Part shown: in pieces, positions 286 through 13,938 of the stretch
Numbering within the stretch: position 1 is the stretch's first letter
How the letters are laid out: the number at the start of each line of letters is the position of its first letter
IMG/VR virus record: IMGVR_UViG_3300013100_000025
Coordinates: 1-28,114 of that record
DNA length: 28,114 nt
Direction: 5' to 3' (one strand)
DNA from: a virus
The notes under the pieces: generated by a model
What the model was told of the DNA's origin: nothing
The model's database searches: none
Seen by the model: only the letters and a program-made list of their open reading frames with translations
Program-made: the position numbers and the translations under genes

Positions 286-1017
286 TTATTTACTAGGCGC
301 CTGGTTGGCCTTTATCTGTTCGAGCATTTGTTTATTTTCGAACGATTGCTGGCGAAGCTCTTGGAGGAGCTGTGCCGTATCCCTGCCAGAATCGAAACTC
401 GACGTACCATAAGCCATCACCGCGATGACGATACCAACGACAGCGATTACGGATAAAACCGAGTTTAGGATTATGGTGCCTTTGAGTCCTCGAAGACCGG
501 CGAGGTCTTTGTCGAGCAACTGCAAGCTATGATTCATCTCTGTGAGACCATCAGAGACTCGCTGCTCGAATTTCCCAAGGCGAGCGTCGACCTTGAGGTC
601 TTGATTCTCAAGATGGGCTTTCAGCTCGTCACGCGTAATTTCAGTCATGTCTTCAGTATGGACAGCATTGGATGTCTTGTCATCTGTAGCGGGCTTCAGA
701 GGTTCTGTATGGCCCATGTACACTTCGTCGTTGCCCACCTGCCAAGGACCATGTGGTATCGCTAGAGGATTTAGAAGGCTGTACATTTTTTGGTAATAAG
801 AAATAGAACGATACTGGTGGGCATCGAAATCCAAGCCTGCCGTCAGAGACTTTTCATACTGATCAATTAGCCGAACAAATTCATCATTCGAGTCTTTATT
901 CAATCCTTCCAAAATCTCAGAAATGCTTTTATTTTCAGAGTCGGAATTGGATGGATTCGTAGCTAATCCGACTCCATTCGGGAGATGGTAGTCATGAAAA
1001 ATCCTAGCTTCGCTCAT
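286..1017 (-). CDS. Coiled-coil single-TM protein in the cI operon (putative lysogenic conversion/exclusion)
   Basis: A 243-aa protein of unknown family. Residues 1-115 look soluble. Residues about 120-175 are charged and heptad-like, probably a coiled coil. Residues about 180-204 are one strong hydrophobic segment (IILNSVLSVIAVVGIVIAVMA), followed by a 39-residue polar helical tail. The ATG at 1017 has GGAG 8 nt upstream and overlaps the 3' end of the zinc-ribbon gene by 14 bp, so the two are translationally coupled. It is the last gene of the leftward cI transcript, before a tandem terminator, the position of lambda rexB. A role in prophage-mediated exclusion is inferred from position and topology only; no family was recognised. 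Confidence 0.75.
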   Translation of the reverse strand: MSEARIFHDYHLPNGVGLATNPSNSDSENKSISEILEGLNKDSNDEFVRLIDQYEKSLTAGLDFDAHQYRSISYYQKMYSLLNPLAIPHGPWQVGNDEVYMGHTEPLKPATDDKTSNAVHTEDMTEITRDELKAHLENQDLKVDARLGKFEQRVSDGLTEMNHSLQLLDKDLAGLRGLKGTIILNSVLSVIAVVGIVIAVMAYGTSSFDSGRDTAQLLQELRQQSFENKQMLEQIKANQAPSK

Positions 1018-1390
1018 CAGGCCGCTCCCGCAAGAGTTGAATGCGGCCTTGCACCATTGCTGCGTTTAAGAAAACCGTGTTTGCACACGTCAAGCAAGTC
1101 AGGGCGTAATGATAATTAGGAAGTTCCTTACCGTTCATCCCAACCGTACCTCCACCAGGTGCTTTTAGCGGGAATTGGCACGGGGCAACGACGTCTTTAG
1201 TAATCCCTGCGTCGTCTGTAAAGCCTATCGTCGAACAGCCCCATTGGTTACTGGAGCAAACCGGGCATAAAAATCTCGACCCTCTTTGAGGCGCAATTGT
1301 ATCCAGGTAGGCGAAAATCTCCTTGGGCTCACACCAGTAAGGCATGTCGTGAATTCCACCAATGTTCACCATATCCGGTTCTGTGCTCAC
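1004..1390 (-). CDS. Zinc-ribbon protein in the cI operon
   Basis: A 128-aa protein with two CxxC knuckles, CPVC (residues 42-45) and CLTC (99-102), plus Cys20, Cys52 and Cys71, consistent with a zinc ribbon. The start is GTG at 1390 with GGAG 5 nt upstream. It begins 34 bp after cI on the same strand and overlaps the following TM-protein gene, so cI, this gene and the TM gene form one lysogenic operon. It holds the rexA position of lambda but shows no RexA similarity that I can see. Function unknown; a sensor or effector of an exclusion pair is a hypothesis. Confidence 0.75.
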   Translation of the reverse strand: MSTEPDMVNIGGIHDMPYWCEPKEIFAYLDTIAPQRGSRFLCPVCSSNQWGCSTIGFTDDAGITKDVVAPCQFPLKAPGGGTVGMNGKELPNYHYALTCLTCANTVFLNAAMVQGRIQLLRERPDERS

Positions 1391-1424
1391 GTGCTCTCCA
1401 TGCGCTCCGCGCTTAATTTATTAC

Positions 1425-2216
1425 TTACAGCATTCCGCCACGCCACACGACGCGACCGATGATGCGGACTTCGTTTATTTCGCCATCTCGCAAAACCTCA
1501 TCGCCGTAGCGCGCCTTGTCCGAGTTGTCGCTGCGAATGATCCATCCGTCGATATCCGACTTCACCAAGCGCTTCACAATCGTGCCTTTGGTGGCGCTCT
1601 GCATGGCGAAGATCTGGCCATCCTTCGGCTCGATCTTTGACTCGTCCACCAGCAGCACGTCGCCGTCGTTGATGGTCGGCTCCATGCTGTGACCGTTCGC
1701 GTAAATGACGTCCAGGTGCCGCTGATTGAGGTTGTTTGCTCGCAGCCAAGACGACTTGAACGCCATGACGCCACGAATCTCGACGTGAGGATTGTCGTCG
1801 CCGTCGCCGGTGGATCCTCGCGCGGTCAACTGCAGCACGCCTGTATAGCCAGGCTCATTTCGAAGATCGAAGCTTCTTGGCGGAATGCGGATGTCTTCCG
1901 CCCCTTGCGGGGAGGGGCGCAAATCCGGGAGAGAGGCGGCCATCTTCTCTATCTGAGCGGCAAGCGTCGGACTGATATCCGATACAGGGACTTGAAGCGC
2001 TTTCGCGAAAACCACCGCAGCGTTGACGCTGAGCGCGGTACGCCCATTCATGAAATGGCTGACGGCGCCTTGAGTAACGCCATCACCGAGTTCGGCTGCG
2101 AGTTTTTCTTGAGTGAGCTTCAGCTCCCCACGTTTTGCTTGGAAAAGGGATTTCAGGCGGGCGCTGTCTTGCAGCTGCCAGTCTGATAGCGGTAGCCGTC
2201 GGGAGTCTTTTTTCAT
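1425..2216 (-). CDS. cI: CI-like phage repressor (XRE HTH + S24 peptidase domain)
   Basis: A 263-aa maintenance repressor. An XRE helix-turn-helix lies at about residues 25-80 (KLTQEKLAAELGDGVTQGAVSHFMNGRTAL). The C-terminal LexA/S24 domain has catalytic Ser177 in GHSMEPTI and Lys215 in GTIVKRL, 38 residues apart as usual for the family. It is transcribed leftward from pRM, divergently from cro, with three operators between. The mRNA appears leaderless or nearly so: the predicted start lies within a few nt of the ATG and no Shine-Dalgarno is seen. No Ala-Gly or Cys-Gly dipeptide, the usual self-cleavage bond, is present anywhere in the protein, which is odd for an SOS-inducible repressor. Confidence 0.93.
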   Translation of the reverse strand: MKKDSRRLPLSDWQLQDSARLKSLFQAKRGELKLTQEKLAAELGDGVTQGAVSHFMNGRTALSVNAAVVFAKALQVPVSDISPTLAAQIEKMAASLPDLRPSPQGAEDIRIPPRSFDLRNEPGYTGVLQLTARGSTGDGDDNPHVEIRGVMAFKSSWLRANNLNQRHLDVIYANGHSMEPTINDGDVLLVDESKIEPKDGQIFAMQSATKGTIVKRLVKSDIDGWIIRSDNSDKARYGDEVLRDGEINEVRIIGRVVWRGGML

Positions 2217-2224
2217 TGAGTGAT

Positions 2225-2253
2225 GTTATTACCCACGGTATTTACTTAACCAA
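2225..2253 (-). promoter_or_regulatory. pRM, cI maintenance promoter
   Basis: The minus strand has a poor -35 TTGGTT (2248-2253), a 17-bp spacer and a -10 AATAAC (2225-2230). OR2 abuts the -35 and OR3 covers the spacer/-10, the layout in which CI at OR2 activates and CI or Cro at OR3 represses. The start site would fall at about 2218, essentially at the cI ATG. Confidence 0.55.
2227..2243. promoter_or_regulatory. Operator OR3
   Basis: TATTACC-CAC-GGTATTT is the most degenerate of the three right operators, 24 bp from OR2 and overlapping the pRM -10. By analogy with lambda it would be the preferred Cro site. Confidence 0.6.
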
Positions 2254-2267
2254 TATCGCCGGTATTG
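2251..2267. promoter_or_regulatory. Operator OR2
   Basis: CAATATC-GCC-GGTATTG differs from a perfect inverted repeat by one base. It overlaps the pR -35 (TTGACT, 2265-2270) and abuts the pRM -35. Confidence 0.75.
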
Positions 2268-2294
2268 ACTGTTAACAATACCGGCGGTCATACT
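2265..2294 (+). promoter_or_regulatory. pR, rightward early promoter
   Basis: A near-consensus -35 TTGACT (2265-2270), an 18-bp spacer and a -10 CATACT (2289-2294). OR1 fills the spacer and OR2 covers the -35, so repressor binding blocks it. It drives cro and the early operon. Confidence 0.7.
2276..2292. promoter_or_regulatory. Operator OR1
   Basis: CAATACC-GGC-GGTCATA lies 25 bp from OR2, between the pR -35 and -10. One half-site is consensus; the other shares GGTCAT with the second OL site at 165-181. Confidence 0.7.
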
Positions 2295-2324
2295 TGTGGC
2301 GAAATCTACGCAGAGGACGCCGCA

Positions 2325-2519
2325 ATGCGCCGAATCCCACTCACCGAATTTGCCAAAGAACACGGCCATACCAAGGCCGCGCAGCTGCTCGGCTGTACGC
2401 AGGGCGCCCTCAGCAAGGCGATCCGCGTAGGCCGTGATGTGTACGTGACCCTCGAAGATGACGGCAGCTTGTCGGCACAAGAGCAGCGTCCGTTCCCGTC
2501 CCAGAAATCCGCCGCATAA
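2325..2519 (+). CDS. cro: Cro-like repressor
   Basis: A 64-aa protein of the lambda Cro family: LTEFAKEHGHTKAAQLLGCTQGALSKAI forms the HTH, followed by the GRDVYVTLEDDGS beta region. It is the first gene from pR and is expected to bind the OR sites and repress pRM during lytic growth. The frame is open further upstream, but ATG 2325 is chosen because AGAGGA precedes it and the protein then has the usual Cro length and N-terminus. Confidence 0.9.
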   Translation: MRRIPLTEFAKEHGHTKAAQLLGCTQGALSKAIRVGRDVYVTLEDDGSLSAQEQRPFPSQKSAA

Positions 2520-2551
2520 CCACTTTCCATTCACCAAGGAGCAAGACCCCT

Positions 2552-2746
2552 ATGGCCTACGACGACAGCCGTCACCTGAAGGATCGGGAAATCAAATCCC
2601 GCTACGACGATGAGACCTACGAGGCACTGAAGGCAGTGGCGCGCCTTCACAAGCTGCAGCTCGCGGTGTTCGTGCGCATGTGCGTGGAGGAGAAGCTGGA
2701 AAGCATCGTCGAGAGCGATGTTACCGATGAACGCCACATGGCCTGA
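2552..2746 (+). CDS. Small ribbon-helix-helix-like protein
   Basis: A 64-aa protein in the slot that cII occupies in lambda. The pattern EIKSRYDDETYEALKAVARL followed by HKLQLAVFVRMCVEEKLE fits an Arc/CopG-type ribbon-helix-helix: a short polar strand and two amphipathic helices. It would be a dimeric DNA-binding protein. AAGGAG lies about 11 nt before the ATG. It is co-transcribed with cro, 32 bp downstream. The fold is predicted by eye and its target is unknown. Confidence 0.75.
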   Translation: MAYDDSRHLKDREIKSRYDDETYEALKAVARLHKLQLAVFVRMCVEEKLESIVESDVTDERHMA

Positions 2747-2764
2747 AGGCCTACAGGAGGCCCT

Positions 2765-3007
2765 GTGCCTGAAACCACGATCTGCCACGGGATCGATGGA
2801 AGGCTTTACGAAAAGCTTGTGCGACTTGCGAAAGCAGAAGGACTGACGCCAGAGCAGTACGCCGCAAAGCTTGGAACAGAGCGTTTCTTCGAGAAGACCA
2901 GGCCAAAAGGCTCCGGAAAGCTGCGCAATCTTCCGGTGCCTCGGCGAGAGCCGCCGCCGGACTTAAAAGGGACTGAAAAAGGATTCGCTGATGAAGTCCA
3001 GAAGTAG
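2765..3007 (+). CDS. Small early protein of unknown function
   Basis: An 80-aa protein starting at GTG 2765 with a strong AGGAGG 4 nt upstream. The N-terminal half (GIDGRLYEKLVRLAKAEGLTPEQYAAKL) is helical and resembles small RHH-like early proteins; the C-terminal half is basic and proline-rich (PVPRREPPPD) and probably disordered. It lies 18 bp after the RHH gene and is the last gene before the early terminator. No family was recognised. Confidence 0.7.
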   Translation: MPETTICHGIDGRLYEKLVRLAKAEGLTPEQYAAKLGTERFFEKTRPKGSGKLRNLPVPRREPPPDLKGTEKGFADEVQK

Positions 3008-3027
3008 CAAGCCCCAAATCGCAGGCG

Positions 3028-3056
3028 AAAAAAAACCACCAGGCCCGGTGGTTTCT
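3028..3056. terminator. Bidirectional early terminator
   Basis: An 8-bp stem (AAACCACC 3033-3040 / GGTGGTTT 3047-3054) with a 6-nt loop. Rightward it is followed by TTTCTTCT. Leftward it is followed by eight T residues, so it is stronger against leftward transcription. It separates the cro cluster from the replication genes, like lambda tR1; rightward expression beyond it would need read-through or antitermination. No rightward boxA was found between pR and here. Confidence 0.7.
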
Positions 3057-3093
3057 TCTACTGCATACATCAAAAGCATCTGTGAGGCCGATT

Positions 3094-3906
3094 ATGCATA
3101 CCTCTAACCATGATGTACAGGCCCTCAAAAAGCCCGCGACACCTTTTTATAGTTCCGAAAATGTGTCGCGACACACGATGTCCTCTCGCGAGATCGCGGA
3201 CCTAGTCGGCTCGCGCCACGACAAGGTCAAACAATCCATCGAACGACTTTCTGCGCGTACTGACGCGAATGGAAACCCGGTGATTGCTCTTCCCCCAATG
3301 GGGGAATACCTCGACAGCCTCGGTCGCAAGGCATCTGAGTACCTTGTCTGCAAGCGCGACAGCTTCGTTGTCGTCGCTCAACTCAGCCCAGAGTTCACCG
3401 CTGCGCTGGTGGACCGCTGGCAGGAGCTGGAAGGGCAGATCGCCCAGCCGCGCGAACTGTCCCGCATGGATCTCATCCAGCTCGCCTTCGAGGCTGAGCA
3501 GCAGCGCCTGCAACTGACCATCCAAGTCGAAGCCCAGGCCTCGAAAATCCATTCCACGGAGAACCTGTTCAAGGAAGGGATGACCCACACCCAATTCTGC
3601 AAGGGCCTCAATGGGGTCAACGTCATGCAGGTGGGCAAGTTCCTCGAAGGTCGCAGCTGGCTCTACAACGAGAGCAAATCCGGACTGCGCTTCCGCGTGG
3701 CGTCTTACGCCCGCGACAAGTACATGACCGAGCATCAGCACGAAGTCACTCCCCACGGCCGCGAGCCGTTCGTTTCCTTCACGCCGGTCCTGCTGAAGAA
3801 GGGCGCCGTGCGCCTCTACGATCTGTATCTGGCCGGCGAACTGCCCATGAAGAAGAACTGGAACGGGCTGTTCACGCACGATAAAGCACTCAAGGGGGCC
3901 GCATGA
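3094..3906 (+). CDS. rha: Rha-family phage regulatory protein
   Basis: About 270 aa. Residues about 29-110 match the Rha family (SSREIADLVGSRHDKVKQSIERL ... GRKASEYLVCKRDSFVVVAQLSPEFTAALVDRWQELE), seen in many lambdoid phages as a regulator whose overexpression interferes with phage growth in some hosts. A coiled-coil-like stretch (about 125-155) leads to a C-terminal region resembling phage antirepressor C-termini (FCKGLNGVNVMQVGKFLEGRSWLYNESKSGLRFRV). ATG 3094 is preferred to GTG 3082 because GAGG precedes it by 6 nt. The N-terminal 30 codons contain a palindromic DNA element (3135-3175). Its stop overlaps the start of the replication gene. Confidence 0.85.
   Translation: MHTSNHDVQALKKPATPFYSSENVSRHTMSSREIADLVGSRHDKVKQSIERLSARTDANGNPVIALPPMGEYLDSLGRKASEYLVCKRDSFVVVAQLSPEFTAALVDRWQELEGQIAQPRELSRMDLIQLAFEAEQQRLQLTIQVEAQASKIHSTENLFKEGMTHTQFCKGLNGVNVMQVGKFLEGRSWLYNESKSGLRFRVASYARDKYMTEHQHEVTPHGREPFVSFTPVLLKKGAVRLYDLYLAGELPMKKNWNGLFTHDKALKGAA
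3135..3175. repeat. Paired CGCGACAC element (copy A) inside rha
   Basis: CGCGACAC occurs at 3135-3142 and, exactly 32 bp later, at 3167-3174, where it is half of the perfect 14-bp palindrome TGTGTCGCGACACA (3162-3175). The same pair with the same 32-bp spacing occurs at 9365-9404. It lies within the N-terminal codons of rha and is probably a protein-binding site. Confidence 0.6.
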
Positions 3907-4712
3907 TGGCCAGATCCAGAAATATCAAACCGGGGTTCTTCTCGAACGAACACCTGGCTGAAGTAGATTTTGCAACGCGCCTTCTTTTCATCGGCATGTG
4001 GACTGAGGCCGATCGGGAAGGGCGCCTTGAGGATCGCCCGCGACGTCTGAAAATGGCCCTGTTTCCGGCTGACAACGTCGACATCGAAAAGATGCTCGCC
4101 GACCTGGATCATTTGGGATTCATCACGCGGTACACCGTTGGATCATTCAAGGCTATCCAGATCGTTAACTGGTCGAAACACCAGAACCCTCACGTCAAAG
4201 AAGCTAAGAGCATCATCCCTGAAATGCCCGTTCTAGATGGGTCGGAAGGTGAGCATGGTGCAAGCCCGGTGCAAGCACCAGACAAGCACAGTTCTTTCCC
4301 TGCTGATTCCCTCTCTCTTGATTCCGGATTCCTGATTCCTGATTCCCTCACTCCGTCGCAAGCTCCGGTGGTGACCGAGGACCTGTTCCCGAAGTTCTGG
4401 AAGCTCTATCCGCGCAAGGTAGGGAAGGACAAAGCCGAGAAGGCGTGGGCGAAGCTCAAGGTCAATCAAGCGCTGTACGACCTGATGGTCGCAGCTCTGT
4501 CCAAGCAGGTCTTGACGCCTGACTGGACCAAGGAACGGGGCCAGTTCATCCCGCACCCTGCGACGTGGCTCAATGGCAAGCGCTGGGAGGACGAGATTCC
4601 TGAGTTTGCCAGCAACGTGCACCCGTTCCCGCAATCCCGTCACACCGGCTTCGCTGAACGCGATTACCAGGCCGGCCTGATCCAGCGGGAGGACGGCAGC
4701 TATGCGCTCTGA
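3906..4712 (+). CDS. Phage replication initiator (lambda O analogue)
   Basis: About 268 aa. The N-terminus MARSRNIKPGFFSNEHLAEVDFATRLLFIGMWTEADREGRLEDRP is the hallmark of a common phage replication/helix-turn-helix family. A variable Ser/Pro/Asp-rich middle (about 115-160) contains tandem DNA repeats likely to be the origin. The C-terminal part (FPKFWKLYPRKVGKDKAEKAW ... FIPHPATWLNGKRWEDE) is the conserved tail of these proteins. It would bind the origin and recruit the helicase loader encoded next. ATG 3906 gives better spacing from AAGGGGG than the adjacent in-frame ATG 3903; either is possible. Confidence 0.85.
   Translation: MARSRNIKPGFFSNEHLAEVDFATRLLFIGMWTEADREGRLEDRPRRLKMALFPADNVDIEKMLADLDHLGFITRYTVGSFKAIQIVNWSKHQNPHVKEAKSIIPEMPVLDGSEGEHGASPVQAPDKHSSFPADSLSLDSGFLIPDSLTPSQAPVVTEDLFPKFWKLYPRKVGKDKAEKAWAKLKVNQALYDLMVAALSKQVLTPDWTKERGQFIPHPATWLNGKRWEDEIPEFASNVHPFPQSRHTGFAERDYQAGLIQREDGSYAL
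4304..4346. repeat. Iteron-like repeats in the replication gene (candidate ori)
   Basis: Four contiguous 7-bp units (TGATTCC, with one GGATTCC) occupy 4319-4346, and a fifth TGATTCC lies at 4304-4310. Just upstream GGTGCAAGC is repeated at 4257-4265 and 4268-4276, 11 bp apart. Lambda's origin is a cluster of iterons inside O, and this is the variable linker of the corresponding gene. Origin function is inferred. Confidence 0.5.
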
Positions 4713-5508
4713 AAAAGCCGTATCGCTTCCTGAGGGCGCTCCACCGATCCGCACCCAGCCGGCCGAATGCGAGAAGCACGGCAACTTCGACCAGAAGGTG
4801 ACCGTACTGCTGGGCCGAGAGCTGAAGGGCGGCTGCCCTGAGTGCTTGCGAGTCATCGCCGAAGAACGCGCAGCCAGCGCCAAGGCCAACGCCGCATACG
4901 AAATGCGATTGTCCCTGACCCGCAAGCTGGGTGATGCGTTGATCCCGAAACGGTTCACCACTCGCACCCTAGACAACTACCAGACCGACCATGACGAGCA
5001 GCGCAAGGCCCTGAAGTTCTGCCGCCACTACGTCGCCACGTTCGACCAGATCCGTGAGTCAGGGCGTTGCATGGTGCTGATCGGCAAGCCAGGCACGGGA
5101 AAGACTCACCTTGGCGTGGCCATGGCCAATGAGCTGCTGCACAAGACAACCCGCACAGCCGTATACCGAACCGTGGGCTCAGTCCTCCAGACAATTCGCG
5201 CCACGTATGACCGGTACAGCGAACGAACCGAGGGCGACATCCTCGCCAGCCTGATCAATCCCGACCTGCTGGTGCTGGACGAGATAGGTGTCAGCAAGGA
5301 GCAGCCGAGCGACTTCGAGCTGACGACGCTGTTCGCAATCATCAACGGCCGGTACGAGCGCGAGGCACCGACGGTGATCATTTCGAACCTGCAGGCCGAT
5401 GAGCTGGGTCGGGCAATGGGTGACCGCTGCGTTGACCGATTGCGGGAAGGTGGCCTGATCGTTGTTCCGTTCGAGTGGGAATCTCAGCGCGGCAAGGAGG
5501 GTTTCTGA
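4702..5508 (+). CDS. DnaC-like AAA+ helicase loader
   Basis: A 268-aa ATPase of the DnaC/IstB type (lambda P analogue). Walker A GKPGTGKT is at 128-135, Walker B LLVLDEIG at 189-196, and sensor-region sequence IISNLQADELGRAMGDRCVDRL lies near 230-255. The N-terminal part has Cys23, Cys45 and Cys48 (CEKHG ... CPEC), a small zinc-binding element seen in phage DnaC proteins. It would load host DnaB at the origin recognised by the upstream protein. The start overlaps the preceding gene by 11 bp and is preceded by GGAGG. Confidence 0.9.
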   Translation: MRSEKAVSLPEGAPPIRTQPAECEKHGNFDQKVTVLLGRELKGGCPECLRVIAEERAASAKANAAYEMRLSLTRKLGDALIPKRFTTRTLDNYQTDHDEQRKALKFCRHYVATFDQIRESGRCMVLIGKPGTGKTHLGVAMANELLHKTTRTAVYRTVGSVLQTIRATYDRYSERTEGDILASLINPDLLVLDEIGVSKEQPSDFELTTLFAIINGRYEREAPTVIISNLQADELGRAMGDRCVDRLREGGLIVVPFEWESQRGKEGF

Positions 5509-5509
5509 C

Positions 5510-5704
5510 ATGACCGTAAAACTTTGGAGCATGCGCGAGCAGTGCCACATCGTCCGAGGTGTTCGCGGGACCGTGTTCGAGCTGGCAAAGCACTTCGGGA
5601 TTCCGCCCAAGGTCGCGCAAAGCCGAATCGCTCGTTACGGCTGGAGCGTCGAGAAGGCCGTCACCGAGCCGATGCGTGAAGACTCAAGGAGAAAGCGACC
5701 ATGA
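5510..5704 (+). CDS. Small HTH-like early protein
   Basis: A 64-aa protein from ATG 5510, with AAGGAGG 9 nt upstream. The segment GTVFELAKHFGIPPKVAQSRIARYGWSVEKAVTEP looks like a short helix-turn-helix used in phage early operons. The frame is open upstream, but the strong RBS fixes this start. It begins immediately after the helicase-loader stop and overlaps the next gene by ATGA. DNA binding is predicted; the target is unknown. Confidence 0.75.
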   Translation: MTVKLWSMREQCHIVRGVRGTVFELAKHFGIPPKVAQSRIARYGWSVEKAVTEPMREDSRRKRP

Positions 5705-6177
5705 CCCCGTTGATTGTTCGCCAAATGCAGCCGTGCCCGGTGAGTTGCGTTTCAACGTGCCTCGCGATGCTTGCTGGCCGACCTGCTGCTGAGGTCATCA
5801 ATGAGCTGCACAAGCCATACCGCGAGGGCGAGCTGACCATGCGCGAAATGCTCGAATACCTCGGGATCAAATACACGGCGTTTTTCAGTGTCGACAACCC
5901 GCCGCTGGCGGACGAGGGCGTTTATCTCTGCACGGCGCCTTCGCTCAATATCGAGGCGGGCAATCACCAGATCTTGATCGAGGTGACCGATGAGGGTTAC
6001 TTCGTGATTGACCCGGTTCAGGGCCGCGAGGATCGCAAATATTACGTGCCGCGCGGCCAAGGCAACGGTGATCCCCTCGCAATCGATCTCGGAGGGTTCG
6101 TCGTCGATGCGTTCGTCTCACGTTCCCACCTGGTGGAGAAATACACGAACGCTATGGCAACGGAGGTTGCGGCATGA
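5701..6177 (+). CDS. C39-like papain-fold cysteine protease (putative)
   Basis: A 158-aa protein. RQMQPCPVSCVSTCLAMLAGRP supplies an oxyanion Gln (Gln8 or Gln10) and candidate nucleophile Cys16 at the start of a helix. GNHQILIEV gives His89 and FVIDPVQG gives Asp104, the Cys-His-Asp order and spacing of C39 (bacteriocin-processing) peptidases. No transporter domain is present. Homologues are annotated as hypothetical or papain-like in phage early regions. It sits between the replication and nin genes with ATGA overlaps on both sides, so it is made early. The substrate is unknown; catalytic assignment is by eye. Confidence 0.75.
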   Translation: MTPLIVRQMQPCPVSCVSTCLAMLAGRPAAEVINELHKPYREGELTMREMLEYLGIKYTAFFSVDNPPLADEGVYLCTAPSLNIEAGNHQILIEVTDEGYFVIDPVQGREDRKYYVPRGQGNGDPLAIDLGGFVVDAFVSRSHLVEKYTNAMATEVAA

Positions 6178-6572
6178 CCGAATTCGCAATCCGCAGTCAA
6201 CGCGATATCAGTCGTCTCATGGGCGTCCTGCACGCAACCGACTTCACCAAGCCCAAGATCGTCGTCATCAAGGACGAGAAACGCCCTGACGTCTGCAACC
6301 GCAAGATGTGGGCAATGCTCAAGGACGTCTCCAACCAGGTGATCTGGTACGGCAAGAAGCTCAGCGACGAGGATTGGAAGTGCCTTTTCAGTGCCTCGCT
6401 GGAGAAGCAACGCGCCGAGCCCGGTCTCGATGGTGGCTTCGTGGTGATGGCCGTATCGACCCGCAAGCAGTCGCAGAAGTGGTTCAGCGATCTGTTCGAG
6501 CTGATGCATGCCTTCGGCGCCGAGCATGGCGTGCGCTGGACCGAGCAGGATAAGTGGGGAGGGCGCTACTGA
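6174..6572 (+). CDS. ninB: NinB recombination mediator
   Basis: A 132-aa member of the lambda NinB (Orf) family, a single-strand-DNA-binding recombination mediator of the RecFOR type. Diagnostic stretches are RPDVCNRKMWAMLKDVSNQVIWYGKKLSDEDWKCLFSASL and the C-terminal SDLFELMHAFGAEHGVRW. It overlaps the protease gene by 4 bp and abuts ninG (TGATG), placing it in the nin block of the early operon. Confidence 0.92.
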   Translation: MTEFAIRSQRDISRLMGVLHATDFTKPKIVVIKDEKRPDVCNRKMWAMLKDVSNQVIWYGKKLSDEDWKCLFSASLEKQRAEPGLDGGFVVMAVSTRKQSQKWFSDLFELMHAFGAEHGVRWTEQDKWGGRY

Positions 6573-7174
6573 TGCGAACTGCCCTCAAGGATGTGAAGCA
6601 GAAAACCTGCAAGGCCTGCGGCGAGAAGTTCGCGCCGATGTTCAACACCACGCAGGTCGTGTGCGGCCCGAAATGCGCGCTGGCCCACGCGCCGGCGAAC
6701 ACTGAGAAAGCCCGCAAGGCGTTGGCTCAAATTGGGCGCGCCGAGATCAAGGTCCGGAAGGAGAAGCTGAAGAGCAGGGCGGATCATCTGCGCGAAGCAC
6801 AGGCCGCGGTGAACGAGTACGTCCGCCTGCGTGACGCGCACCAGCCGTGCATCAGCTGCGACTCAATGCCGAGCGACTGCGACCTGATCACCGGCAGCCG
6901 CTGGGACGCCGGCCACTACCGATCCGTCGGCGCCTGTCCTGAGCTGCGCTTCGAGCCACTGAACATCCACCGCCAGTGCGTGAAGTGCAATCGCAACCTG
7001 TCTGGTAACGCGGTCGAGTACCGCATCCGGCTGGTGCAGCGCATCGGCGCCGAAACCGTGGCCTGGCTGGAGGGGCCTCATGAGCCCCGCAAGTACACCG
7101 TCGAAGAAATCAAAACCATCAAGGCCGAATACCGGGCCAAGACCCGAGAACTGAAAAAGGGGCAGGCAGCATGA
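6572..7174 (+). CDS. ninG: NinG (Rap) recombination endonuclease
   Basis: A 200-aa lambda NinG/Rap family protein, a structure-specific nuclease that cleaves recombination intermediates. An N-terminal zinc motif (CKACGEKFAP ... CGPKC) and a long charged helix precede the nuclease region with CISC, DAGHYRSVGACPELRFEPLNIHRQCVKCNRNLSGN, the typical HNH-like Cys/His cluster. ATG 6572 is chosen because GGGGAGGG precedes it and TGATG couples it to ninB; longer in-frame starts lack this. Confidence 0.92.
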   Translation: MRTALKDVKQKTCKACGEKFAPMFNTTQVVCGPKCALAHAPANTEKARKALAQIGRAEIKVRKEKLKSRADHLREAQAAVNEYVRLRDAHQPCISCDSMPSDCDLITGSRWDAGHYRSVGACPELRFEPLNIHRQCVKCNRNLSGNAVEYRIRLVQRIGAETVAWLEGPHEPRKYTVEEIKTIKAEYRAKTRELKKGQAA

Positions 7175-7851
7175 ATTACCACAACGTGATCTCAGCAGTA
7201 GTTCGGGCCTTGGCCGCCGAGACGATCAACAGTTCCGGCGGATGTAACGTCGAGCCCCGGGTGCAGGCCAGCAAGCTCAAGGGTGAGATATCCGGGAAGG
7301 ATGCAGCGCTGTTGGCTGACTGCATCGTGCACAAGCTTCTGCACGCCCAGCTTTCTCCGCGGCACTGGAACGCCCTGGTGGCGAAGTACAGCACTCACCG
7401 TGGCCGCAAAATCGATTCCATCGGCCGGCTGGTCGCCGTGGTGAAGACCCCGGCACCGCAGCGCTTCACGCAACAGGCCGTCTTGGTGTGGGCTGTGCCG
7501 CAACAGGTGAAGGGCATTCAGCGAGCGGTAACCCAGATCAAGGCGCCGAAGCACCGGGAGAACAAAGAGAAAGGGCAGTGGGACTGGCGCAACGCGGCGG
7601 CAGACGCTGACGTTGCCAGGGCCAACAAGCATGCCCGCTCGGTGGCGGAGGAAAAGCCCGGCGAGATGATCGTCCTGGCCGATTCGAACTACGACATGAC
7701 TAACTGGGATTCTCAGGGGCTCACGGAGCGCACCTACCAGCGCTGGAACAAGGCCATCAAAGAAAGTTTGGAGTCGCTTGTGAACGAGGCTCTGGTCGAG
7801 GCGCAACACATGCTTGAAGCGGTCGGAGTGCTGGAAGGCGAGGCGGCGTAA
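7171..7851 (+). CDS. Last early gene; putative late antiterminator by position
   Basis: A 226-aa protein that I do not recognise by family. The N-terminal half (CIVHKLLHAQLSPRHWNALVAKYSTHRGRKIDSIGRL) is basic and helical; the C-terminal half is acidic and helical. It overlaps ninG by ATGA and ends the early operon. It occupies the lambda Q position, and just downstream lie a plausible promoter (7871-7900), a roughly 330-nt leader and a strong terminator (8226-8252), the pR'-tR' layout that Q proteins act on. Antiterminator function is inferred from position only. Confidence 0.6.
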   Translation: MNYHNVISAVVRALAAETINSSGGCNVEPRVQASKLKGEISGKDAALLADCIVHKLLHAQLSPRHWNALVAKYSTHRGRKIDSIGRLVAVVKTPAPQRFTQQAVLVWAVPQQVKGIQRAVTQIKAPKHRENKEKGQWDWRNAAADADVARANKHARSVAEEKPGEMIVLADSNYDMTNWDSQGLTERTYQRWNKAIKESLESLVNEALVEAQHMLEAVGVLEGEAA

Positions 7852-7870
7852 AATAGTCCCTCAAAAGGGC

Positions 7871-7900
7871 TTGCAATGTCATGTCGCCATGTCGCATTAT
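7871..7900 (+). promoter_or_regulatory. Candidate late promoter (pR'-like)
   Basis: TTGCAA (7871-7876), an 18-bp spacer and CATTAT (7895-7900) lie 20 bp past the last early gene. Together with the terminator at 8226-8252 this matches a late promoter with a short terminated leader. The hexamers are only moderate matches, so this is tentative. Confidence 0.4.
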
Positions 7901-7994
7901 TCACCCATCCTGTCATTCCTGCGTGTGTTGAGGATTGACGAAATAGCTTCGGGGGGCGAACGGTTCGATTCCGGCAGCTCTCACGGCTACCCAG

Positions 7995-8207
7995 ATGGCA
8001 TTGCTGTTTGTTATGGCGGTCTTCATGACCGTGCTTTACACAACTCCAGAAATGCTGATCGCGACAGTTATTTCGCTCGCGAATGAGGGTAGTAAGATGA
8101 CCGAGATCCCAAGCTTAACCATGCTGTTTTTCAAGCCTGTTGTAACCGTGATATCTGCCATCGCGTGTAGCTGTGTCGCTGCTGGCGCAGTTCCCCGCTC
8201 CATCTGA
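7995..8207 (+). CDS. Possible small two-TM protein in late leader
   Basis: A 70-codon frame encoding two hydrophobic stretches (residues 1-30 and about 44-66). ATG 7995 has no convincing Shine-Dalgarno. The internal in-frame ATG at 8097 has GAGGG 7 nt upstream and would give a 36-aa one-TM peptide. It lies between the putative late promoter and its terminator. It may be a small lysis-associated membrane peptide or chance; the 7852-8225 stretch holds no better gene. Confidence 0.3.
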   Translation: MALLFVMAVFMTVLYTTPEMLIATVISLANEGSKMTEIPSLTMLFFKPVVTVISAIACSCVAAGAVPRSI

Positions 8208-8225
8208 GGCTTTATCGCCTCGACT

Positions 8226-8252
8226 AAACCCGGCCACTGCGCCGGGTTTTTT
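8226..8252 (+). terminator. Strong rho-independent terminator (tR'-like)
   Basis: A 9-bp stem AAACCCGGC (8226-8234) / GCCGGGTTT (8241-8249) with a 6-nt loop, ending in a T run. It stands before all lysis and structural genes, so late transcription must read through it or start beyond it. Confidence 0.85.
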
Positions 8253-8285
8253 ATTGCCTCGAATTCGACTCGTTGGGAGGTGCGC

Positions 8286-8450
8286 ATGAAGCTGAAGGCC
8301 AAAGCCAATCTGCTGGAGCGCGACAGAGCAGCGTGGGAGGCAGTCGCGCGGCAGGTTGGGGAGACGGACTTCTCTCGCCATCCACAGACTGGCGAATACC
8401 TCCACCCTGGTGTCGCCATGGGTTGGCGCATCCACAAGAAGAATCTGTAG
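8286..8450 (+). CDS. 54-aa protein of unknown function
   Basis: A short gene: ATG 8286 with GGGAGG 5 nt upstream, stop TAG 8448-8450. The product is basic, with an N-terminal helix (MKLKAKANLLERDRAAWEAVA) and a conserved-looking C-terminal stretch FSRHPQTGEYLHPGVAMGWRIHKKNL. It lies just after the tR'-like terminator and before the lysis genes. The consensus RBS and distinctive C-terminus argue that it is real; no function is assigned. Confidence 0.65.
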   Translation: MKLKAKANLLERDRAAWEAVARQVGETDFSRHPQTGEYLHPGVAMGWRIHKKNL

Positions 8451-8765
8451 TTTCACCTGTAGCCAGGACAGCCCTCGGGAAGGCCTGGACGTCGATAGCC
8501 GGATAGTGAGACGTACGGAATCAACACCGGCAGCCCGTGCACCCTGACCTCAAACTTGCTTTCGGGGTGGCGCGAGACTTGATCAGCGAGATCGATGCAT
8601 AGGGGCGTTGACGTTGAAAAGGCCTTTGGCAGACAGCTCGGAAAGACGAGCGCACCTATTCAGGGCCTCTGCACTCGCAGGGGCTTTTTTCGTTTTCGGC
8701 TCCCCACACCCATTGCTCCGAGCTGGGAGTGCAGCGGGGCCGACCTATTTCCCATGGAGACTCCA
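8451..8765 (+). other. Non-coding stretch upstream of the holin
   Basis: No convincing gene is seen. A 21-codon GTG frame (8537-8602, ending ARDLISEIDA) could be the remnant of a small gene but lacks an RBS. The stretch holds a hairpin GCTCG-GAAAGA-CGAGC (8636-8651) and a terminator (8665-8690). The frame of the downstream holin is open through part of it, but no start there has an RBS. Confidence 0.5.
8665..8690 (+). terminator. Rho-independent terminator upstream of holin
   Basis: GCCTCTGC (8665-8672) / GCAGGGGC (8677-8684), an 8-bp stem with one G-T pair and a 4-nt loop, followed by TTTTTT. It is the second terminator between the early operon and the holin. Confidence 0.75.
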
Positions 8766-9089
8766 ATGGCAGAACCGGCGAGCACTGCCGCCAGCGTCGT
8801 GCTGGTGAAGTACGGTGTGGTCATGGCTGCTTTCGTCGGTTCGATCCTGTCCCTTGGTTTTCTGAAAGACCTTACCAGGGGGCAGGCAGCGACTGCTGTG
8901 GCTACTGGCTTCGGATTTTCGGTTTACCTAACGCAACCAGTGACGTTATGGCTCGCCCCAAAGCTCGATCTGGCTGTGAATGATGATCTGCTGTGTGGGG
9001 TGGCATTCGTGCTGGGCCTTACAGCGATGAACATCATCCCGGCACTGAAGGCGGCAATGGGGTCGTTCGTAACGGCGCGAGGTGCCTGA
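8766..9089 (+). CDS. Putative holin
   Basis: A 107-aa membrane protein with three hydrophobic segments (about residues 12-32, 42-62 and 76-95) and a short charged tail. Size, topology and position before a second small membrane protein fit a phage holin, which permeabilises the inner membrane at lysis. ATG 8766 is chosen because GGAG lies 6 nt upstream; the in-frame ATG four codons earlier overlaps this GGAG. No holin family can be named with certainty. Confidence 0.7.
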   Translation: MAEPASTAASVVLVKYGVVMAAFVGSILSLGFLKDLTRGQAATAVATGFGFSVYLTQPVTLWLAPKLDLAVNDDLLCGVAFVLGLTAMNIIPALKAAMGSFVTARGA

Positions 9090-9090
9090 C

Positions 9091-9363
9091 ATGAACAGCA
9101 TCATTGTTTCCGCGCTAGGGGTGCTCGACGCGCTTCTGTGCGTCTTGGTGGCCTTGGCTGCGTGCGATTACCTGCGCCGGATTCGCCCGGTTGATCAGCC
9201 GCTGCTGTGCACGGCGTTCTACCTGGTGGCCATTGGGGCGTTCGGCGCATTCGTTACCGCAATGCAAGGGCACTGGATCAACCCGTTCGGCGTAATGCTA
9301 CATGCCGGTGTGGTGGCTTATGCCTGGGCGACACGAGGGCATGTGTTCGAGTTGAAGGTGTAG
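9091..9363 (+). CDS. Second small membrane protein of the lysis module
   Basis: A 90-aa protein with three hydrophobic segments (about residues 5-27, 38-56 and 62-80) and a CDYLRRIRP turn. ATG 9091 has GAGGTG 6 nt upstream, one base after the holin stop, so the two are coupled. It could be an antiholin or second holin. No endolysin gene follows. Confidence 0.65.
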   Translation: MNSIIVSALGVLDALLCVLVALAACDYLRRIRPVDQPLLCTAFYLVAIGAFGAFVTAMQGHWINPFGVMLHAGVVAYAWATRGHVFELKV

Positions 9364-9406
9364 TCGCGACACGTTTCGCCAATCAGCAAATTGTGTCGCG
9401 ACACGT
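9363..9406. repeat. Paired CGCGACAC element (copy B)
   Basis: GTCGCGACACGT occurs at 9363-9374 and again at 9395-9406, 32 bp apart. The second copy includes the palindrome GTGTCGCGACAC. Spacing and core match the pair inside rha (3135-3175), and the intervening bases share TTT and AAA-TGTGT blocks. It lies immediately after the stop of the second lysis gene. Confidence 0.65.
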
Positions 9407-9457
9407 CTGGTAGCGCTCGGGTGAGTGCTATACGTCTCGTCAGCCTCGGGTGAGTGC
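9403..9457. repeat. Tandem imperfect 26-bp direct repeat
   Basis: Two 26-bp units (9403-9428 and 9432-9457), 21 of 26 bases identical, both ending CTCGGGTGAGTGC. The second covers the 3' end of the leftward 68-aa gene. Function unknown; it might be a binding-site array or belong to a packaging site. Confidence 0.6.
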
Positions 9458-12151: not shown

Positions 12152-13938
12152 GCGCATTCACTTATCTGAAAGACAGCCTGCAGAACCTGGTCGCAGGACT
12201 GGGCACTGCGCGCGACAAGGCATCGCATTCGCACTATGCGCTCCCGGTTATGGACGACCAGCAGCTGCTGAACGCCTTTCGTGGATCGTGGACGGCGCAG
12301 AAGGGCGTGAGCATCCCGGCCGTTGATGCGTGCCGCAACTGGCGCAACTGGCAGGCCGACAAGGCTCAGATCGAGCTGATCGAAGCCGAAGAGGATCGCC
12401 TCAACGTCAAGGGCAAGATTCTGGAGGCCCTATTGAAGGCCCGTCTGTTCGGCGGCGCTGCGGTGTTCATCGGTACCGGTGAGCGCGACACAGCGTCAGA
12501 GCTGAAACCGGATCGGATCGGCAAGGGTGGCATCAAGTACCTGACGGTGATGACTCGCCGCCAACTCAGCGCCACCGAGATCGAGCAGGATCCGCAGAGC
12601 CCGCGCTTCGGCAAGCCGAAGTCCTACCGGTTGCCGGGTTCGACGGTGGAGATTCACCCGTCGCGCCTGGTCATCTTCGTCGGTGTGCCGCATCCAGATC
12701 CCGAGCTTGCCGTGGGCACCGGCTTCGGCTGGGGTGACTCGGTGCTGCTATCTGCAATGCCGGCTGTGCGTCACTACGACGAGACGGTCGCCAACGTGGT
12801 CAGCCTGGTCTACGAGGCAAAGATCGACGTCATCAACATTCCCAATCTGATGTCGAGCATGCAGGACAAGAACTACGAGCGCCTGCTCCTGGAGCGCTTG
12901 CGTCTTGCTGCCACGGCCAAGGGCATCAACGGAACGCTGATCCTGGACGGGCAGGAGACACACACCTCGAAGTCAGCCAGCTTCGGCACGCTGCCGGACG
13001 TGATCGCCAAGACAGAGCAGGGTGTGGCTGGCGCGTTCGATATCCCCGGAACCCGCATGTTTGGTCAGTCCTCGACCGGGCTGGGCGCCAATGGCGAAGA
13101 GAACACCCGCAACTACTACGACAACGTCGCCTCACGCCAGAAGCTGGAGATCAAGCCGGCCATGAGCGTGCTGGACGAGGGGTTGATCCGCTCTGCACTG
13201 GGCAGCAGGCCCAAAGAGATCCACTACACCTGGTCGCCGCTATGGCAGGCCACGGCGAAAGAGCGGGCCGATATCGGCAAGACCACAGCGGACACCATCA
13301 AGGCGCTGAAAGACTCCGGACTTTTCCCTGAGGATGCGCTCTCGACCGCCGCGGTGAATCTGCTGGTCGAGCTGAGCGTTATGCCGGGCCTGGAAGCGGC
13401 GATCGAGAAGTTCGGCGACGAGCTGCCCGATGACGACGATGACCTGCCGAGCACTGGGCCTGATCAGCCAGTGTCGAAGAAGGCCATCACTGACGCAGCG
13501 CCACGCTCGCTGTATGTGTCCCGAAAGGTCATCAACGGCGCTGAGATCATCGCGTGGGCCAAGTCGCAGGGCTTCGAATCCACCGTCCCAACTGCTGACT
13601 TGCACGTCACCGTCGCCTACAGCCGCAACCCGGTCGATTGGATGAAGGTCGGCGAGTCATGGTCGGGCGATGGCAAGGGCCAGCTCAAGATTGCACCAGG
13701 TGGCGCAAGGCTGATCGACAAGTTCGGCGAAGACGCAGTGGTGCTGCTGTTCAACAGCTCGGAGCTGGCTTGGCGGCACGTCACCATCGTTGAGGCTGGC
13801 GCCTCTTGGGACTGGCCGGACTATCAGCCCCACATCACCTTCACCTACGAACCCGGCAGCGTCGATATCGACAAGGTCGAGCCATACCGTGGCGCGATTG
13901 AGCTGGGTCCCGAGATCTTCGAGGAGCTCGCCCCATGA
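12148..13938 (+). CDS. Portal protein with C-terminal Acb1-like (anti-CBASS) 2H phosphodiesterase domain
   Basis: A 596-aa fusion. Residues 1 to about 420 form a DUF1073-type portal, the dodecameric ring at the DNA entry vertex. An acidic linker (residues 424-440, with five consecutive Asp) leads to a domain of about 145 residues starting SLYVSRKVINGAEIIAWAKS. It carries two HxT motifs, LHVTVAYS (His486, Thr488) and PHITFTY (His562, Thr564), the catalytic signature of 2H phosphodiesterases, with the sequence style of phage T4 Acb1, which degrades CBASS cyclic nucleotides. No internal start with an RBS was found for the domain alone, so it is probably made as part of the portal. CBASS antagonism by this protein is inferred. 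Confidence 0.9.
   Translation: MSAFTYLKDSLQNLVAGLGTARDKASHSHYALPVMDDQQLLNAFRGSWTAQKGVSIPAVDACRNWRNWQADKAQIELIEAEEDRLNVKGKILEALLKARLFGGAAVFIGTGERDTASELKPDRIGKGGIKYLTVMTRRQLSATEIEQDPQSPRFGKPKSYRLPGSTVEIHPSRLVIFVGVPHPDPELAVGTGFGWGDSVLLSAMPAVRHYDETVANVVSLVYEAKIDVINIPNLMSSMQDKNYERLLLERLRLAATAKGINGTLILDGQETHTSKSASFGTLPDVIAKTEQGVAGAFDIPGTRMFGQSSTGLGANGEENTRNYYDNVASRQKLEIKPAMSVLDEGLIRSALGSRPKEIHYTWSPLWQATAKERADIGKTTADTIKALKDSGLFPEDALSTAAVNLLVELSVMPGLEAAIEKFGDELPDDDDDLPSTGPDQPVSKKAITDAAPRSLYVSRKVINGAEIIAWAKSQGFESTVPTADLHVTVAYSRNPVDWMKVGESWSGDGKGQLKIAPGGARLIDKFGEDAVVLLFNSSELAWRHVTIVEAGASWDWPDYQPHITFTYEPGSVDIDKVEPYRGAIELGPEIFEELAP

Follow-up and report, generated by a model that had tools for sequence, protein, structure and literature searches.

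A 36-bp inverted repeat carried in frame by rha-type regulator genes of Pseudomonas phages is a candidate operator for the regulators' C-terminal domain

INTRODUCTION

A great many phages encode proteins of the Rha/Ant/KilAC type. In phage HK022, Roi works with IHF close to the gene that encodes it, and we know of no multi-copy operator or arm/residue code for this protein. Short conserved sequences are also found between the mosaic modules of phage genomes, where they are termed boundary or linker sequences. The immunity repressor of cluster A mycobacteriophages has numerous asymmetric sites, the stoperators, at which it is proposed to stop transcription elongation, according to the part of the source available to us (PMC9283540). 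For a phage encoding a KilAC protein, the accessible portion of the report describes DNA binding for an XRE repressor, not for the KilAC protein (PMC11172241). The open literature, covered mostly as abstracts, yielded no paper on the element described below or on the DNA site of Rha-type proteins, and a search with bare element sequence strings gave no title on the element among the matches listed.

Here, we describe an element of a 28,114-nucleotide stretch of viral DNA (IMG/VR record IMGVR_UViG_3300013100_000025; hereafter, the window) and of related phages. Judged from comparative sequence data, the element would represent an unusual form of phage operator network, in which the putative operator lies in frame in the regulator gene and tracks a residue of the regulator's C-terminal wing.

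RESULTS

Architecture of the element in the window

The first-pass annotation of the window had reported a pair of direct repeats in two places, and its particulars were reproduced: CGCGACAC occurs on the plus strand at 3135, 3167, 9365 and 9397, with exactly 32 bp between the members of each pair, the second member is palindromic (GTGTCGCGACAC), TTT and AAA-TGTG blocks lie between the arms of both copies, and both copies read in the same phase give A-T-x-F ... V-S-R-H. The direct 32-bp pair is therefore real, but it describes the element incompletely, since what is conserved is an inverted repeat. Both window copies are one 36-bp inverted repeat, CGCGACAC-N20-GTGTCGCG, in which four further bases (ACAC) turn the right arm into the 12-bp palindrome, and it is because of this extension of one arm that a 32-bp direct pair appears. 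The consensus of the arms is CGCGmCAC-N20-GTGkCGCG. The 8-mer CGCGACAC is mildly enriched in the window (7 matches versus a mean of 2.09, with at least 7 in 3 of 100 shuffles), an additional lone match being found at 12484. Copy 1 occupies the 5' end of rha, and copy 2 lies between a lysis-side gene and the packaging genes, directly 3' of the TAG stop (9361-9363) of the gene at 9082/9094-9363 (Table 1).

Table 1. Positions of the element and of the regulator gene in the window
Feature	Position	Strand	Remarks
rha-type regulator gene with copy 1	3094..3906	+	ATG start at 3094 proposed; GAGG at 3083-3086
Copy 1	3135..3174	+	within the rha reading frame, towards its 5' end; encodes ATPFYSSENVSR
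Copy 1 arms	3135-3142, 3163-3170	+	N20 spacer with T and A tracts; palindrome 3163-3174
N-terminal Rha-type domain (Phage_pRha)	3178..3432	+	residues 27-111 of the 268-aa translation
C-terminal winged-helix segment, candidate reader	3586..3699	+	AlphaFold model, covariation
Recognition helix; wing hairpin	~3622-3651; up to ~3699	+	AlphaFold model
Lys180 codon, recognition helix	3637..3639	+	K in all A-type; N/K in C-type; mostly H in Cr-type
Phe198 codon, wing strand	3691..3693	+	F in A-type, H in C-type, Y/W in Cr-type; best arm-type tracker
Copy 2	9365..9404	+	intergenic; arms 9365-9372, 9393-9400; palindrome 9393-9404

Other repeats were seen in the vicinity. Copy 2 is followed at 9405-9432 by a hairpin-like repeat, TAGCGCTC-GGGT-GAGTGCTA, which in two related phages (L031 and L082) reads TATCGCTC-GGGT-GAGCGATA, both sides of the stem being changed. 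Beside cI, at 2254-2289, there is a strong inverted repeat (CGCCGGTATTG...CAATACCGGCG) that is either a cI/cro operator or, on the minus strand, terminator-like; in other phages, CAATACC/GGTATTG is again found 5' of rha elements. Within the copy 2 spacer (9376-9393) there is AATCAGCAAATTG, which fits the IHF consensus, WATCARNNNNTTR; since AATCAGCAAATTG is absent from other copies, an IHF site was dropped as an explanation of the spacer.

The regulator gene and its domains

The product of the rha gene matches the anti-repressor family phrog_63 of PHROG (9.9e-57), and its N-terminal domain scores 39.9 bits against Phage_pRha (PF09669; cut-off, 29.9). In relatives this N-terminal domain is swapped for other domains, while the element stays. 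The C-terminus reaches 17.8 bits (E 0.0043) with KilAC/ANT (PF03374), below the cut-off of 25.3, and is therefore classed only as KilAC-like; some element-carrying relatives pass the KilAC cut-off (L138 with 74.5 and L143 with 86.2). As the full-length AlphaFold model was poor in the C-terminal part, this part was folded alone, which gave a long helix and a winged helix with a mean pLDDT of 86.5; helices at 46-51 and 58-67 and strands at 71-73 and 81-83 of the model form a helix-turn-helix followed by a beta hairpin. Structure comparison of the C-terminus gave weak similarities, the best to a partition protein (Z 3.7) and the next to MarR-type regulators, a Foldseek search with the C-terminal model returned no match at E up to 0.001, and a sequence search against solved structures returned none.

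The element also precedes other C-termini. The phrog_129-like family, unrelated to the window type, has weak winged-helix matches in 4 of 30 members, and a profile comparison of its alignment with that of the canonical KilAC-like C-termini gave no significant match. Further C-termini occur in some element-bearing genes, namely, in a KilA-N protein (L146) and in L046 and L097; in the latter two, the frame after the element runs into a different protein without an Ant-type C-terminus, which is possibly nuclease-like, of the T5orf172 type.

The copy inside the regulator gene is constrained as DNA

The 36-bp inverted repeat was found in the first part of the gene in all 80 rha relatives retained (the best 80 of 254; the other similarity scans kept the best 80 of 264, 360 and 380). 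The set with a window-type C-terminus comprised 207 loci and 157 distinct proteins, of which one with too little upstream sequence and five without a clear element (L320, L325, L336, L337 and L338) were dropped before types were counted. The element is thereby present in the genes of 151 of 156 distinct proteins; of the five exceptions, two have a decayed site and three are distant relatives, from P. luteola, Rahnella and Hafnia. In the phrog_129-like family 137 of 143 proteins carry it, and in the canonical KilAC-like family 39 of 48 have an A-type element (types are defined below).

The geometry of the in-gene copy is fixed, with a spacer of 20 bp in 142/142 same-gene arm pairs in which both arms are exact and an identical reading phase in 200/200 rows, counted before removal of duplicates. 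Complementary arms at this constant N20 distance provide dyad-symmetric half-sites at fixed helical spacing, as in the operator of a dimeric regulator. Among the A-type genes, all 72 use GCG, ACA and GTG as arm codons and 71/72 use TCG, whereas in the same genes the Ser, Arg, Ile and Ala residues immediately after the element are encoded by varying synonymous codons. Because the arm codons are frozen while neighboring codons are synonymously free, it is the DNA and not the peptide that is conserved. The linker peptide, A-T-x-F...N-V-S-R or A-P-R-F...N-V-A-R, precedes Bro-N-like, KilA-N and other domains as well as Rha, the element standing in the same phase ahead of all of these (with Pfam support for Rha and KilA-N). 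Both the codon pattern and the occurrence of the linker before unrelated domains bear out the earlier suggestion that the rha linker is dictated by the DNA element.

Copies outside the regulator gene

The pair had been predicted to be common outside rha, and 125 distinct downstream copies were indeed found beyond the regulator gene. In most phages they lie about 5 to 9 kb from the regulator end, at the lysis/packaging junction; in the phrog_129-like set the offset has a median of 5958 (range, 622 to 8988). A stop codon, belonging to differing genes, is placed exactly 2 nt before the element in 103/125 copies, and an upstream stop together with a downstream start codon and a Shine-Dalgarno-like stretch was scored in 76/125 by a rough script criterion. 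A decayed rha fragment, which the first-pass annotation had named as the observation that would undo its reading of copy 2, was rejected: homology to rha stops at the element, the flanks differ from rha and between phages, the upstream stop codon abuts, and the equivalents of copy 2 are almost always directly 3' of the stop codon of an unrelated gene. Searches of copy 2 found no sigma-70-like promoter and no terminator-like site.

Matching junction copies were seen in phages with a window-type or phrog_129-like C-terminus. The canonical KilAC-like family had a junction copy in 0/16 eligible loci; some phages have a variant that reads TGCGACACCTTTTC...AAAAGGTGTCGTG, or nearly so, in their left early operon, close to recombination genes, and this variant stands upstream of the regulator in 9 canonical KilAC-like rows (10 with L529, which has another spacer).

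Abundance, spacing and controls

At least 119 viral-contig stretches match CGCGACAC-N{18,22}-GTGTCGCGACAC in an exact scan, and the backward-read control pattern matched 0 stretches in the viral contigs. Among the 126 matches listed, which include the two of the window, the spacer is N20 in 107 and N21 in 19, with none at N18, N19 or N22; the N21 matches form one separate lineage, save one extra copy. When 50 matching contigs were searched whole with up to 3 mismatches, the N20 pattern was present in 44, many of which had it in more than one distinct place, the other 6 were contigs of the N21 lineage, and none of the 50 matched the reversed control. CGCGMCAC-N20-GTGKCGCG occurs in 75/199 Pseudomonas genomes versus 7 for the reversed pattern, with one chance match each. 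These controls rule out a chance origin, the strong evidence coming from sequences other than the window. For the most part, occurrences of the element are limited to Pseudomonas phages.

In the N21 lineage (L009 at 3912-3952, L069 and others), the same arms lie within a 100-aa open reading frame with the peptide VSRHEYTPSENVSR, and L069 has a second N21 copy; as another lineage with its own reading frame, this set does not enter the counts given for the Pseudomonas element. A-type copies of yet another class (L056, L057, L083, L091, L101, L116, L117 and L119) have spacers such as CATCCACGGATAACGAAAAC, and several of them sit upstream of genes beginning ATGCGCTATGTGAC.

Arm types almost always agree within genomes

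Three types of element can be told apart: A-type (GACAC), with arms CGCGACAC/GTGTCGCG; C-type (GCCAC), with arms CGCGCCAC/GTGGCGCG; and Cr-type, with C-type arms but reversed AT tracts (AAAA...TTTT inside). The A-to-C switch hits both arms together. With up to 1 mismatch allowed, the types of the regulator copy and the downstream copy were A-A in 44, A-C in 3, C-C in 35 and C-A in 1 of the window-type family and A-A in 30, A-C in 1, C-C in 28 and C-A in 1 of the phrog_129-like family (Fisher tests, 9e-19 and 1e-14, respectively, on rows that share descent). The matching arm types at both sites support the earlier proposal that one regulator would act at two control points. Discordant genomes are L322, L270 and L248 in the window-type family (with a decayed copy in L178) and L352 and L013 in the phrog_129-like family. 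In phiAH14a (L122, 19105-19227) a C-type element lies within a 40-codon remnant open reading frame and an A-type copy before the packaging genes, a mixture that is likely a relic of module exchange. Cr-type phages have no real second copy, with 1 two-mismatch match in 23 eligible loci and none recurring; the type was found only in prophages of hosts that we take to belong to the P. putida group.

Covariation points to the regulator's C-terminus

In a first alignment of 78 distinct rows, the column of Phe198 tracked the arm type best (MI/H 0.95), followed by that of Lys180 (0.71). With 151 proteins, the best C-terminal column had an MI/H of 0.886 over A, C and Cr, and the Phe198 column held F62 L7 M2 H1 with A-type, H46 L6 Y1 with C-type and Y16 W10 with Cr-type elements. 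The residue code is leaky, as Leu stands at the wing position with both A-type (7) and C-type (6) sites. The sole A-type protein with His (L242) has a hybrid site, CGCGACAC...GTGGCGCG, and a C-type downstream copy. In the AlphaFold model the two tracking residues fall in the recognition helix and in the wing strand after the turn. Phe with A:T would correspond to a hydrophobic contact to thymine and His with C:G to a hydrogen bond to guanine, both of which are chemically plausible. When only A and C types were considered, the best column scored 0.846 for the Rha C-terminus, compared with 0.277 for the N-domain of Rha; of the linked genes, two on the packaging side scored 0.485 and 0.35, NinG scored 0.45 and the Q-position gene 0.40. 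The N-terminal Rha domain was rejected as the binder, as the same helix sequence is found with A, C and Cr sites and the domain is swapped with the element unchanged.

The phrog_129-like family was tested in the same way, omitting from the 143 proteins 6 without an element and 2 with mixed sites, and its top columns (91, 77, 73, 81 and 74) all lie within 19 residues resembling a helix-turn-helix. Since relatives were found by similarity and rows are not independent, nearest disjoint pairs of different type were compared with same-type pairs matched for distance, which corrects only partly for descent, the pairs being disjoint yet not strictly independent: column 75, the best-tracking one, differed in 60/62 pairs versus 25.0 expected in the window family, and column 91 differed in 48/54 versus 27.3 expected in the phrog_129-like family. 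The share of differences falling in the helix-turn-helix and wing was 0.264 versus 0.181 (sd 0.017) in the former and 0.495 versus 0.406 (sd 0.018) in the latter, in each case above all 500 resamplings. The canonical KilAC-like family, with its 39/48 A-type elements, permits no A/C test.

DISCUSSION

The comparisons indicate that the element is likely an operator in a phage regulator network, bound by the C-terminal domain of the regulator, and we have good confidence in the C-terminal winged-helix domain of Rha/Ant-type proteins as its predicted binder. The site would be built from two half-sites in inverted orientation (CGCGmCAC, an AT tract lying on the inner side), and with these at a fixed 20-bp spacer a regulator dimer, or a pair of dimers, would bind one face of the DNA. 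The most likely reader would be the C-terminal winged-helix domain encoded by the element-carrying gene itself. The copy near the start of that gene's coding sequence points to autoregulation, which would probably block transcription entering the rha-replication operon, and through the matching junction or left-operon copy the same protein would control entry into the late or left operon too. We infer binding, dimerization and a transcription block from the pattern of sites and residues; that the effect of the predicted binding is repression or a roadblock we put at about an even chance, and because neither a sigma-70-like promoter nor a terminator-like site was found at copy 2, a roadblock of passing RNA polymerase is favored over classical promoter repression, at chances close to even.

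The alternatives start from the question of which protein reads the site. CI, Cro and the RHH protein, which the first-pass annotation had put forward, are not the candidates indicated; CI-like proteins were matched in only 17/51 long loci. It is unlikely, though worth a small share of belief, that another phage protein (CI, Cro, Q-like or NinG-like) binds and that the agreement with Rha reflects shared descent of linked genes: all of these candidate genes are indeed linked, and NinG alone comes close to rha in how regularly it accompanies the element (34/34 A, 9/9 C and 6/8 Cr long loci), yet the best columns of NinG and of the Q-position gene fall well below that of the Rha C-terminus, and it is mainly in the helix-turn-helix and wing of the latter that different-type pairs show their surplus of differences. 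A host DNA-binding protein could account for the near confinement to Pseudomonas phages and for the restriction of Cr-type sites to prophages of presumed P. putida-group hosts. This reading was rejected as very improbable, because A- and C-type elements occur together in single bacterial genomes (G051, G255, G164, G149 and G197, among the matches listed), so that A/C type is independent of the host and the regulator is most likely phage encoded; a host factor would, moreover, leave the type match within phages and the covariation with a phage protein unexplained.

The remaining alternatives dispense with a DNA-binding regulator. That the element is mainly a joint for module exchange by homologous recombination, without a regulator, agrees with its position at module borders, with differing genes on either side, and ahead of swapped domains, but a bare joint needs no inverted repeat, fixed N20 spacer, paired A-to-C arm switch or wing-residue covariation, and we regard this as quite improbable, although an operator may well serve as a joint besides. 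An RNA hairpin acting in translation or mRNA stability might be expected from complementary arms in transcribed regions, often just 5' of a ribosome-binding site. It was rejected, and we rate it extremely improbable, for several reasons: (i) the loop length is constant (N20 in 142/142), where an RNA loop would drift; (ii) arm mismatches are few and have no G-U preference (10/1208 positions); (iii) the left-operon form GTGTCGTG disrupts arm pairing, and the palindromic extension lies outside the hairpin; and (iv) the covarying partner is a winged-helix protein, which speaks for DNA.

If the C-terminal domain is the reader, a wider scheme can be sketched, which as a whole we consider rather doubtful: (i) placement of the operator in the reading frame between the start codon and an exchangeable N-domain would keep swapped domains autoregulated, the element doubling as a recombination joint; (ii) the specificity of a site set would come largely from one wing residue reading one base pair per arm (Phe A:T, His C:G); and (iii) site copies growing with replicating DNA could titrate the self-limited regulator and open the packaging genes at enough genomes. 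For a very common group of phage proteins, the element provides a concrete candidate site, a candidate domain and a residue-to-base prediction. It also accounts for the odd N-terminal peptide common to unrelated regulator domains and suggests how regulators may be reshuffled while keeping their own control.

Of the known systems, several share features with the one proposed here. Like the lambdoid antirepressors (PF09669, PF03374 and PF04383), the element-carrying proteins draw on the KilAC, Bro-N and KilA-N vocabulary and mix N-terminal domains; unlike in those families, a putative operator lies in frame in the coding start, an arrangement that we did not find described in the literature as covered here, mostly through abstracts. 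As with Roi of HK022 and phage Rha, a Rha/Ant-type protein of the early right operon is concerned, whereas dependence on IHF is not indicated for the Pseudomonas element. Boundary and linker sequences resemble it as conserved short sequences at module borders and differ in lacking its operator-like geometry and its covariation with a DNA-binding domain. By analogy, the nearest known behavior is that of the mycobacteriophage stoperators: there, as predicted here, a phage-encoded protein binds several sites scattered across the genome, inside and between genes, but stoperators, as far as the available part of the source describes them, are asymmetric, numerous and bound by the immunity repressor, whereas the Pseudomonas element is an inverted repeat present in 2 to 3 copies, with an Ant/Rha-type protein as its candidate binder (PMC9283540).
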